Of a stretch of DNA of 64,000 nucleotides, positions 60,343-63,065 are shown piece by piece. Each line of letters opens with the position of its first letter. Within the stretch, counting starts at the first letter, position 1. Under the pieces are notes generated by a model. It had not been told where the DNA came from. It worked only from the letters and a program-made list of their open reading frames with translations, and made no database searches. The translations under genes were made by a program, and so were the position numbers. The stretch is from Anaerolinea thermolimosa (GTDB lineage: Bacteria > Chloroflexota > Anaerolineae > Anaerolineales > Anaerolineaceae), in contig NZ_DF967965.1 in assembly GCF_001050195.2 (NCBI RefSeq), forward strand, positions 2,205,035 through 2,269,034. Reading direction: 5' to 3'.

Positions 60343-61237
60343 CTGGTTACATGTGGCTGAAGATCGTGGGTGTCGGGTACGTTGGGTCGATTTTAACCCC
60401 CATACGGGCATGCTAGACCTGGATGACTTCCGCTCCGCATTGGAAGAAAGGCCCAAACTGGTAGCCTTTGGATATGCCTCCAATGCGCTGGGGACGATTA
60501 ACCCGGTCTATGAGATGACCTCTCTGGCTAAAAGAGCCGGGGCTCTGGTATACATCGATGCGGTGCAATACGCCGCCCACGGGCCCATCGATGTGCAGAA
60601 AATCGGGTGTGACTTTTTAGTCTGTTCGGCTTACAAATTCTTCGGGCCACATGTGGGTGTGCTCTACGGGCGGTATGACCTGCTGGACCGCCTGTCAGCC
60701 TACCGGGTGCGTCCGGCACCGGCTGACCCACCGGGTAAATTTGAAACAGGCACCGGTAACTTTGAGGGGTATGCCGGGGTGCTTGGCGCTTTAGAATATT
60801 TTGAATGGCTTGGCAAGAATTTTGGCCATGACTTTCTCGAACTCTATTCGGGTGAATACACAGGCAGAAGGCTGGTCTTCAAACAGGCCATGGCGGCGGT
60901 GCGGGCCTATGAAGCTGAACTCTCGCGCGCCATTCTAGAGGGGCTCCACTCTATCCCGGGCGTTCATATCTACGGCCCTGCCACCCCAGACCTGATTGAT
61001 CATCGTGTGCCTACCATTTCTTTCACCATGGAGGGGCATTCACCGCAGGAGATTGCCCGCAGGCTTGACCAAGAGGGAATTTACGTCTGGAATGGGAACT
61101 TCTACGCTCTTGCCGTCACCACCCGCCTTGGACTGGAAGACAAAGGCGGCCTGCTGCGAGTTGGCGCCACCCATTACAATTCTCTGGATGAAATAGCCCG
61201 CCTCATCACCGCTCTCGAGCGAATGGCTTCAAAATAA
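59978..61237 (+). CDS. Class V aminotransferase, cysteine desulfurase-like
   Basis: A 419-aa PLP-dependent protein. The PLP lysine is in CSAYKFFGPHVGVLYG, preceded by YIDAVQYAAHGPIDV with the cofactor Asp and a His; these match the cysteine-desulfurase-like subfamily with 'KFFGPH'. No Cys is evident at the persulfide loop position of true NifS/IscS, so the reaction is uncertain. It follows the duplication, keeps its ATGA overlap with the copied fragment of the hypothetical gene, and ends at a terminator. Confidence 0.88.
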   Translation: MTLDIAAIRSHFPALQQPAIFLDNPGGTQIARQSLERIHTYLTRTNANHGGEFATSRASDATIDAARAAMADFLNASRPEEIVFGPNMTSLTFNLSRALARTFQPGDLLVVTHLDHDANISPWLHVAEDRGCRVRWVDFNPHTGMLDLDDFRSALEERPKLVAFGYASNALGTINPVYEMTSLAKRAGALVYIDAVQYAAHGPIDVQKIGCDFLVCSAYKFFGPHVGVLYGRYDLLDRLSAYRVRPAPADPPGKFETGTGNFEGYAGVLGALEYFEWLGKNFGHDFLELYSGEYTGRRLVFKQAMAAVRAYEAELSRAILEGLHSIPGVHIYGPATPDLIDHRVPTISFTMEGHSPQEIARRLDQEGIYVWNGNFYALAVTTRLGLEDKGGLLRVGATHYNSLDEIARLITALERMASK

Positions 61238-61244
61238 CCTTGAA

Positions 61245-61275
61245 GGGTCGCCTCAACAGCGACCCTGTCTTTTTA
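61245..61275 (+). terminator. Intrinsic terminator after aminotransferase
   Basis: A 7-bp stem (GGGTCGC / GCGACCC) with a 7-nt loop followed by TGTCTTTTT. A second, imperfect inverted repeat follows at about 61279-61311. Confidence 0.75.
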
Positions 61276-61404
61276 AATGGCAAACGCCAGAGTGAGGGGG
61301 GCACCCTGACGTTTACCGGGATTATTTTACCCCAACTTTCTGAAAACATCAAGCGGAAACATTACAATTTCATAATTAAATACTAATTTTAATCGCACAT
61401 CACC

Positions 61405-61647
61405 CACACCCTTCCGGGTGCTCTCAACCTGGATAAAAAAAATGCCCCAGGAGGGATTCGAATACCACACCCTTCCGGGTGCTCTCAACCTGGATAAAAA
61501 AAATGCCCCGGGAGGGATTCGAATACCACACCCTTCCGGGTACTCTCAACCTGGATAAAAAAAATGTCCCAGGCGGGATTCGAATACCACACCCTTCCGG
61601 GTGCTCTCAACCTGAATAAAAAAATGCCCCAGGAGGGATTCGAACTC
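61405..61647 (-). repeat. 61-bp tandem array derived from tRNA-Arg 3' half
   Basis: Four units begin at 61405, 61466, 61527 and 61588 (plus-strand coordinates), period 61 bp, with only a few substitutions. Read on the minus strand, downstream of the tRNA, each complete unit holds the variable-loop and T-stem start (AGGTTGAGAG), a 19-nt insert with hairpin CACCC-GGAA-GGGTG (GNRA loop), then TTCGAATCCCTCCTGGGGCA (T-loop to acceptor end) and a run of seven or eight T. The plus-strand-first unit is partial. The last unit merges into the real tRNA 3' end. Confidence 0.9.
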
Positions 61648-61698
61648 TCAACCTAGGCGTTAGGAGTGCCTTGCTCTGTCCTGTTGAGCTACTGGGGC
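61625..61698 (-). tRNA. tRNA-Arg (anticodon CCU)
   Basis: A 74-nt cloverleaf on the minus strand without encoded CCA: acceptor GCCCCAG/CTGGGGC, D-stem GCTC/GAGC, anticodon loop CTCCTAA (anticodon CCT), T-loop TTCGAAT, discriminator A. There is one A-C mismatch at the bottom of the anticodon stem and one in the T-stem, so it may be slightly degenerate. A -10 box lies nine bases upstream, and T7 follows the 3' end. It decodes AGG. Confidence 0.88.
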
Positions 61699-61707
61699 GT
61701 CTTCCCA

Positions 61708-61720
61708 ATTATACTATAAT
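61708..61720. promoter_or_regulatory. Divergent -10 boxes for tRNA-Arg and MFS gene
   Basis: Minus-strand TATAAT at 61708-61713 (nine bases before the tRNA) and plus-strand TATAAT at 61715-61720 (for the MFS gene) are separated by one base. -35 elements are not convincing. Confidence 0.55.
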
Positions 61721-61757
61721 ACTCCCAAGACTGAATCGCCTGAGGGAGCCCCTTTCT

Positions 61758-63065
61758 ATGGATGAAAAACAACATAAACGAGCTATCTGGGCCTGGACGT
61801 TCTACGACTGGGCCAATTCGGCCTTTGCCACGACCATCATGGCCGCCGTTTTACCCGTGTATTATGCCTCAGTAGCCGGCGCTACCCTGCCAGGTAACCT
61901 GGCCACGGTTTACTGGGCCTACACAACATCCATCAGTCTGCTCATCGCGGCGGTGCTTAGCCCCATCCTGGGCGCAGTTGCCGACTTCACCGGGGGTAAA
62001 AAGCGTTTTCTTACCATCTTTATGCTCCTCGGGGTAGCTGGAACAGCCCTGTTATACTTCGTCCGCACCGGTGACTGGCTCATGGCTTCCATTTTCTTCA
62101 TTCTTGGAGATGTCGGTTTTGCCGGTTCCCTCGTGTTCTACGACGCTCTCCTTCCTCATGTGGCACGACCCGACGAAATTGATCAGGTCTCTTCGCGTGG
62201 ATATGCCATCGGGTACCTGGGCGGAGGACTGCTTCTGGCCATCAATCTGGCAATGATCATGCTGGCGCCCCCCGAATTAACCGGCCTCATGACCCGGCTT
62301 TCGTTTCTCAGTGTTGCCCTCTGGTGGTTTGTATTTTCCATTCCCCTCCTGCGCATCGTTCAGGAACCCCCACGCCGCATTCAGGCCGGTGAACTGGGGG
62401 TTAATCCGGTGCGGGTATCATTTCAGCGACTGGCGCACACCTTTCGCGAAATCACCCACTTTCGCGATCTGTTCCTTTTCCTGGTCGCCTTCTGGTTCTA
62501 CAACGACGGCATTGGTACCATTATTAAAATGGCCACCATTTACGGCGCCGAGATTGGAATTGGCCAGACCACCCTCATTGGAACGCTCCTCATGGTGCAA
62601 TTCGTGGGCATTCCTTTTGCGTTTCTTTTCGGCTGGCTGGCCAAACGGATTGGGACGAAAACCTCCATCTACATCAGCCTGCTGGTTTACACGGGTATTT
62701 CCATTGCAGGCTTTTTTATGTCGCAAGAATGGCATTTTTGGGCGCTGGGGTTCGCTGTGGCTACCGTACAGGGGGGCAGTCAGGCACTCAGTCGCTCGTT
62801 GTTTGGCCGCATGGTGCCCCGCAGTAAGTCTGCCGAATTTTTTGGTTTCTTCTCGGTGAGTGAAAAATTCGCTGGCATTGCTGGCCCATTTGTCTTTGGT
62901 GTAGTTGGGCAGATTGTCGGCCACAGCCGGTTGAGTATTATTTCGCTGATCATCTTCTTTGTTATCGGGGCGGCTCTGCTCACCCGTGTCAATGAACAGG
63001 AAGGCATCCGGGCCGCAGAAGCTGAAGAGACCAGCTTAATTGCCGCCTCGATGCCAACTCAATAA
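61758..63065 (+). CDS. MFS transporter, UMF1/Atg22-like
   Basis: A 435-aa membrane protein with about 12 hydrophobic segments. AWTFYDWANSAFATTIMAAVLPVYY near the N-terminus and GAVADFTGGKKR in loop 2-3 are typical of the UMF1 (Atg22-like) MFS branch, possibly an amino-acid or peptide exporter. GAGGGAG nine bases before ATG 61758 sets the start. From 62215 onward the gene lies in the 1025-bp duplication; this copy is intact. Confidence 0.88.
   Translation: MDEKQHKRAIWAWTFYDWANSAFATTIMAAVLPVYYASVAGATLPGNLATVYWAYTTSISLLIAAVLSPILGAVADFTGGKKRFLTIFMLLGVAGTALLYFVRTGDWLMASIFFILGDVGFAGSLVFYDALLPHVARPDEIDQVSSRGYAIGYLGGGLLLAINLAMIMLAPPELTGLMTRLSFLSVALWWFVFSIPLLRIVQEPPRRIQAGELGVNPVRVSFQRLAHTFREITHFRDLFLFLVAFWFYNDGIGTIIKMATIYGAEIGIGQTTLIGTLLMVQFVGIPFAFLFGWLAKRIGTKTSIYISLLVYTGISIAGFFMSQEWHFWALGFAVATVQGGSQALSRSLFGRMVPRSKSAEFFGFFSVSEKFAGIAGPFVFGVVGQIVGHSRLSIISLIIFFVIGAALLTRVNEQEGIRAAEAEETSLIAASMPTQ

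Follow-up and report, generated by a model that had tools for sequence, protein, structure and literature searches.

The window, a 64,000-nucleotide stretch of the Anaerolinea thermolimosa genome, carries on its minus strand a tRNA-Arg(CCU) gene (61625-61698; called by ARAGORN as tRNA-Arg(CCT), 61 bits with the Rfam tRNA model) that is the parent of a tandem array. The gene is followed by a trailer with a T7 run (61614-61624, minus strand), and the sequence and TRF place an equivalent of this trailer after every full unit. Read on the minus strand, a unit consists of a lead AGGTTGAGAG (tRNA nt ~44-53), a 19-nt insert CACCCGGAAGGGTGTGGTA, a tail TTCGAATCCC..GGGGCA (tRNA nt 54-73) and a T7-8 run. 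In unit 1 (61565-61613) the lead lies at 61604-61613, the hairpin insert at 61585-61603 and the tRNA tail at 61565-61584; the same layout is found in unit 2 (61504-61552, insert 61524-61542) and unit 3 (61443-61491, insert 61463-61481). After these three full 61-bp units comes a partial fourth one (61404-61430), which has its lead (61421-61430) and a hairpin from 61420 but no tail, and gives way to unique flank; all four units are on the minus strand. TRF reports the tandem array at 61404-61644 with a period of 61, 4.0 copies, 94% matches, no indels and a score of 440, and it is the sole array reported in the window. ARAGORN, TRF and the minus-strand reading thus bear out what a sequence-only reading had described here, tandem tRNA-Arg 3'-half units with a split T-arm. 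The insert, CACCC-GGAA-GGGTG-TGGTA, sits between the 5' strand of the T-stem and the T-loop. Its loop is GGAA in all window units, and a C to T change in the stem of unit 2 leaves a U-G wobble when the tRNA strand is read. The GGAA tetraloop is of the GNRA type, which across the surveyed loci accounts for only 14 of the 34 four-base loops.

The array is one member of a real Anaerolineales-specific repeat family. When the genome and its relatives were searched for the unit, as the sequence-only reading had proposed, core patterns allowing ≤3 mismatches, which detect the commonest unit type only, were found at 33 places in the same genome and at least once in 31 of 147 same-family genomes, and the reversed-pattern control gave 0. 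Tail copies follow 11 of the 47 tRNA genes of the A. thermolimosa genome, 7 of 70 entries in G001 (a large tRNA cluster being among them), 3 of 44 in G003, 6 of 48 in G007 and 8 of 44 in G024, where identical gene copies were counted once and tail copies were picked by the last 17 letters of the tRNA alone (≤3 mismatches, first copy within 250 nt). Reading loci across the A. thermolimosa genome, isolates and MAGs, we found units at 22 anticodons and 13 amino acids in all: Arg (CCU, UCG, GCG), Gly (UCC), Ser (GGA, CGA, GCU), Met, Lys (CUU, UUU), Val (CAC, GAC, UAC), Glu (UUC, CUC), Asn, Asp, His, Gln (CUG), Cys and Pro (CGG, GGG). An exact-core scan of an 84,980-species GTDB collection returned 26 stretches, 25 of them titled Anaerolineales or Chloroflexota and including the cultured Bellilinea caldifistulae GOMI-1 and Levilinea saccharolytica KIBI-1. 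The remaining stretch, from a "gammaproteobacterial" contig, matches an Anaerolineales contig at 100% identity over 2,940 bp and is therefore probably misbinned. Among 400 Chloroflexota genomes, the core is present in 16 of the 36 belonging to the order of the window (Anaerolineales) and in 0 of the 364 outside it. Within the A. thermolimosa genome, 21 of 22 matches to the bare hairpin are in tRNA tails; we considered a freely dispersed hairpin element and rejected it, matches away from tRNAs being mostly single, chance-like sites.

Comparison of these loci gives a common anatomy. Each unit holds the 3' part of the neighbouring tRNA, starting at the 5' strand of one arm, with a hairpin in the loop of that arm, followed by the remainder of the tRNA and a copy of the trailer of that tRNA; units are ~55-130 bp long and occur singly or in tandem, from 1 to about 14. 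The usual type starts at the T-arm and has its hairpin on the 5' side of the T-loop. The hairpin is inside the T-loop or on its 3' side at Gln (G000, G001, G024), Cys (G007), Pro-CGG (G024) and Ser-GCU (G003), and at His in G065 the insert lies a few bases further 5'. At Glu-UUC (gene TTC) in G001 and G024 the units start in the anticodon arm and carry the hairpin in the anticodon loop, at Glu-UUC in G007 both the anticodon and the T loop contain inserts, and at one Cys locus (G003) the start is in the D-arm and the hairpin in the D-loop. Some units at Glu-CUC in G064 (L062) have oppositely oriented hairpins flanking TTCGAA. As a rule, then, the tRNA copy is truncated at its 5' end and the hairpin occupies the loop of whichever arm comes first. 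Within one array the loop and spacer of the units are mostly the same; between species they differ.

Several loci show further small structures. Some Val and Arg units (L070, L084, L068) have an apparent second small hairpin in the acceptor strand, and L173 and L084 have another at the junction of trailer and lead. Tandem ~19-22-bp GGGGATGNTA hairpins were seen at L147 (~1460-1590), L169 (~980-1060, shown strand minus) and L170; the first two had no tRNA in the fetched stretch, and the third adjoins a tRNA-Leu gene.

The association of hairpin and tail was measured in five genomes, at loci chosen without a hairpin criterion. Counting as a hairpin any stem of four or more Watson-Crick pairs within the 45 nt that precede a copy, we found one before the tail at 33 of 35 loci, or 108 of 116 copies, versus 181 of 838 background windows taken 3' of tail-less tRNAs (p=4e-19 by locus). 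The two loci that fail the rule are Glu-UUC/TTC arrays, with an anticodon-loop hairpin in G024 and, in G007, a T-loop hairpin whose stem is too short to be scored. For covariation we used the 34 of 48 distinct segments that have a four-base loop and the full linker, so the alignment is gap-free. The closing pair in these 34 segments is TA 17 times, CG 8, CA 4, GA 4 and AA 1, leaving 9 unpaired; T/C versus A/G across the pair gives a Fisher p=1e-4, and the unit finder did not require a closing pair. Over the five stem pairs, 94.7% of cells are paired compared with 88.5% in shuffles, and 11 cells are doubly changed compared with 3.2, values reached by 0/500 shuffles in both cases, although these counts lean towards pairing because the units were collected with the hairpin rule. 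Two of the five measures, the number of pairs with a double change (114/500) and the pair types (496/500), did not exceed the shuffles. The presence of the hairpin at 33 of 35 tail-copy loci, together with the covariation of the closing pair, supports a structural constraint on the hairpin.

Stem conservation inside arrays is only modest. In 15 arrays comprising 72 units picked by tail alone, after removal of 4 tail copies below 70% identity and of one array thereby reduced to 2 units, 11 of 704 stem letters vary, alongside 11/314 in the loop, 18/720 in the lead, 14/339 in the linker, 13/504 in the T-loop and 43/1035 in the T-stem 3' plus acceptor strand, which is no less variable than the rest. 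The stem differs from everything else combined (11/704 versus 99/2912, p=0.01), with 4 of its 11 changes (L063) resembling alignment shifts at a shorter loop, and in separate comparisons its variation is not significantly below that of the lead (p=0.26), of the T-loop (p=0.22) or of the hairpin loop (p=0.06). A cruder stem count, false copies included, gave 45/878 (p=0.24 versus the loop). We withdrew a much stronger contrast (4/670 versus 151/3402, p=3e-8), for which units had been picked and registered by a hairpin rule that favours intact stems. The selection on structure that had been read from the wobble pair in unit 2 thus gains support from the tail-copy loci and the closing pair, and only modest support from variation within arrays.

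Units were also compared with their parent tRNAs. The tail stays close to the parent and the lead drifts, which fits homogenisation with the tRNA, although the figure for the tail is biased because ≤4 mismatches were allowed in 16 tail letters and the tail was also used to find the units; in this comparison and in the T-stem counts, a one-base register shift is possible for a few leads. These counts cover the 52 loci left after 11 of 63 tRNA rows (neighbouring true tRNAs or chance) had been dropped, and the 52 are not independent, since some are orthologues or come from close relatives. T-stem position 52 is changed in 17 of the 52, and in 14 of these it has become C or T, either of which is able to pair with the G that follows the stem. 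Among changed T-stem pairs 56 are broken and 11 kept. This loss of T-stem pairing argues against the idea that the units are tRNA mimics, or sponges, for RNase P, RNase Z or modifying enzymes. As mimicry would have it, most T-loop letters are retained, in units that were picked partly by tail similarity; however, the acceptor 5' strand is absent from the units and the T-stem 3' and acceptor letters vary as much as the others. We regard mimicry, one of the suggestions made from the letters of this locus, as very improbable.

A role in RNA is the main rival to the explanation we come to below, because some arrays keep terminators in nearly every unit. Read-through from the tRNA promoter would carry the units into a transcript in which the hairpin, with or without a terminator, acts as one of several stacked stops, as a barrier fixing the 3' end or as part of small tail RNAs. 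A stem followed by a T-run is found in units of the Glu (two), Ser, Gln, Pro and Asp arrays of Levilinea, a Glu array of Bellilinea, a Ser array of another MAG and the Val array of the A. thermolimosa genome. By a rule asking for a stem directly followed by a T-run, most units qualify in 9 of 10 other arrays examined and none in L080. Where units differ, the terminator stem is mostly kept: L247 has three different stems, L195 has differences that preserve pairing as G-U, and in one L065 unit the terminator has been replaced. Preservation of stem and T-run across differing units points to transcription of at least those arrays, and the recurrence of the hairpin as a structure would also suit an action in RNA. 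However, the trailers of other arrays (e.g. L005, L049, L060, L201) have neither a terminator nor a T-run, and the terminal units of L234, L244 and L247 are without their T-run or escape the terminator call. In the window itself no terminator was called on the array (minus) strand, and single units fold no better than shuffles (z -0.66, -1.29 and -0.80), so the compact fold proposed from CCAGG/CCTGG pairing confers no excess stability on them. The suggestion of stacked terminators therefore fits some arrays and does not fit those that are without terminators, and we consider an action in RNA possible but on the unlikely side.

The history of the locus can be followed in relatives. An IMG/VR contig (L093) carries the orthologous locus, 84.7% identical to the window over 1,619 bp and also array-bearing; both of its units have an AAAA loop in place of GGAA, and non-matching sequence flanks the array on the tRNA side. 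In G003, of the same genus, a tRNA-Arg(CCU) with a homologous upstream flank has no tails, and downstream homology resumes 64 nt past the tRNA, compared with 272 nt in the window genome. In G001, also of the same genus, a 51-kb interval lies between tRNA-Arg(CCU) and its unit; it begins, adjoining the tRNA, with a gene with resolvase and recombinase domains (a large serine recombinase), and no hairpin is seen at the junction there. From these three comparisons it follows that arrays are gained, lost and homogenised, and that the tRNA stays open to foreign DNA in spite of them. Carriage by viruses was also considered and rejected: the strict pattern matched 0 IMG/VR contigs and a looser one 3, of which two (L094, L095) are chance-like matches without tRNA or hairpin and the third is the orthologue of the window locus.

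The independent orthologous contig, together with arrays at other tRNAs in two cultured isolates, indicates that the array is not an assembly artefact. Several arrays do stand at contig ends in fragmented MAGs, as such an artefact would predict, but the independent assemblies, the isolates and the orthologous locus are all array-bearing, and we give an artefact practically no credence.

The relatives also bear on whether the units are scars of mobile elements, left when integrases cutting in tRNA loops produced partial copies, with the hairpin a degraded part of an attachment site. Integrases that use tRNA genes cross over in the T and anticodon loops, and the hairpins occur in these two loops and in the D loop. 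Other DNA does get in at tRNA-Arg(CCU), as the serine-recombinase interval of G001 and the non-matching sequence of L093 show. In both relatives, however, this DNA lies between the tRNA and an already existing unit, which does not support the units being remnants of repeated integration as it had been put, and the G001 junction lacks the hairpin. Units hold no cargo, no gene fitting inside one, and the hairpin interrupts the tRNA core and does not flank it. An island attachment site would appear as a displaced tail ending an integrase island, whereas here the units are short and the foreign DNA is outside them. Scars of this kind seem to us quite unlikely.

Tandem duplication alone, by slippage or unequal crossing-over, could have carried the hairpin of a single founder along as an inert passenger. 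It would account for the variable copy number and for units that are largely uniform within arrays, and sits well with the modestly low variation of the stem. In the A. thermolimosa genome whole blocks of tRNA-Ser genes and arrays are themselves duplicated in tandem (L049, L051). Duplication leaves unexplained, however, why a similar hairpin is found in the loops of different arms at 22 anticodons, why it is there at 33 of 35 loci and why its closing pair covaries. The simple slippage suggested at first can thus explain how many units there are but not what they share, and as a full account we think it improbable.

The explanation that we favour, tentatively and at somewhat less than even odds, is that the arrays are hairpin-tagged tandem copies of tRNA tails that are homogenised with the tRNA and in which the hairpin is needed to make or keep the unit. 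The part to the right of the hairpin would be homogenised with the tRNA by recombination between direct repeats. Like REP-like palindromic elements, a unit may depend on the folded hairpin, as single-stranded DNA or as RNA, for its creation, amplification or persistence, and on that view the array need not serve the host. Against this explanation stand the terminators found in nearly every unit of most examined arrays, which a purely selfish DNA repeat would not require, the only modestly low variation of stems within arrays, the two covariation measures that stay within the shuffles, the hairpin-rule bias in the pair counts, and the Y1 proteins, candidates for the enzyme, whose occurrence follows that of the arrays loosely at best (figures below).

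Among known systems, the closest in layout are the tyrT repeats of E. coli, which encode rtT RNA and are tandem repeats directly downstream of a tRNA gene, each with the tRNA 3' end; they occur at one locus, with ~178-bp units that contain a 19-bp tRNA piece, and to our knowledge have no hairpin in a tRNA loop. The Anaerolineales arrays are likewise tandem repeats 3' of a tRNA, each with its 3' end, but unlike the tyrT repeats they are found at 22 anticodons, in units of ~55-130 bp with a hairpin in the first-arm loop; an Rfam scan of 61200-61800 in the window (E<=10) gave no rtT match. The small dispersed repeats of cyanobacteria are very small mobile repeats with a ~20-nt hairpin element at structured sites, whereas the Anaerolineales hairpins are tied to tRNA-tail copies. 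REP elements and BIMEs, which are associated with RAYT transposases, are also short GC-rich hairpins in copies or tandems (PMC3733652, PMC3116915), and Y1 proteins are present in most genomes here. The GTAG or CGTC tag of the REP elements in PMC3733652 has few counterparts: GTAG/CTAC adjoins the hairpin in 0 of 52 loci and CGTC/GACG in 5 of 52. Unlike dispersed extragenic REPs, the hairpin copies of the A. thermolimosa genome are, with one exception, in tRNA tails. Islands integrated at tRNA genes also leave partial 3' copies downstream of the tRNA, as described for Islander (PMC4383910) and in the Haloquadratum study (PMC3119063), and at least one array tRNA seems to be used by an island as well; by comparison, the units here are head-to-tail, without cargo, and have a core interrupted by a hairpin. 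The arrays belong with tandem repeats built on the tRNA 3' end, since they share that defining feature and the comparisons with REP elements, island attachment sites and tRNA mimics fail. Among the open-access papers listed in the literature searches we saw no description of such arrays, which is weak evidence since only open-access sources were covered.

A bolder proposal, which we hold to be unlikely but worth stating, is that these arrays form a hairpin-directed micro-cassette system anchored in Anaerolineales tRNA genes. A putative enzyme would recognise the folded single-stranded hairpin and the loops of tRNA arms, the tRNA 3' end with its trailer would be repeatedly copied or inserted beside the gene to give integron-like arrays without cargo, and array tails would exchange with the working tRNA. 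Y1 (HUH) proteins were found in 14 of 16 genomes tested, array-bearing or not. A protein with a receiver-like N-terminal part and a C-terminal Y1_Tnp-like domain (L368, 640-2082 on the plus strand, with the N-terminal part lacking in its frame, and L369-L378) is encoded in 68 of the 147 family genomes. This receiver-Y1 protein is only loosely associated with the arrays: it occurs in 20 of 31 genomes with core matches and 48 of 116 without (p=0.026, ignoring kinship), and is missing from 4 of the 19 genomes with two or more core matches. The HUH motif was not apparent by eye in the shared Y1_Tnp-like domain, and the protein is possibly a domesticated transposase. We rejected an origin of the units from reverse-transcribed tRNA fragments because the array-rich A. 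thermolimosa genome gave no RVT_1 match; RVT_1 is present in 8 of the 16 tested genomes.

tRNA genes rank among the main sites at which mobile DNA docks in bacteria. In Anaerolineales, including cultured isolates, about a tenth to a quarter of tRNA genes (3/44 to 11/47 in five genomes) are followed by a structured repeat derived from the gene's own tail. Should the hairpin drive copying, the repeat would be a palindromic unit of a new kind, one linked to tRNA loops; should the hairpin act in RNA, the repeat would be a new downstream element of tRNA transcription units. In practical terms, tRNA-tail repeats can break assemblies.

Two neighbouring observations deserve mention. Contig C61 of G001 holds, at about 5.5-9.2 kb, a dense cluster of about 30 tRNA genes, as in phages or tRNA islands. 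In the window, a 12-bp hairpin with a C-rich loop (GTG-CCCCCCT-CAC) lies on the minus strand at 61283-61313, behind a promoter-like box pair (61352-61324, minus strand), and gave no Rfam match in the scan of 61200-61800 (E<=10); it is probably an unrecognised small RNA. Its pattern, with ≤2 mismatches, is present in 92 of 147 same-family genomes at 1-3 copies each, with controls at 0. Among 49 variants, typed from part of the match list, 48 or 49 keep the pairing at 10 of the 12 pair positions, several two-sided changes occur, and the loop is CCCCCCT in 48. A -10-like box stands ~10 nt upstream of hairpins of this type in the four loci inspected by eye.
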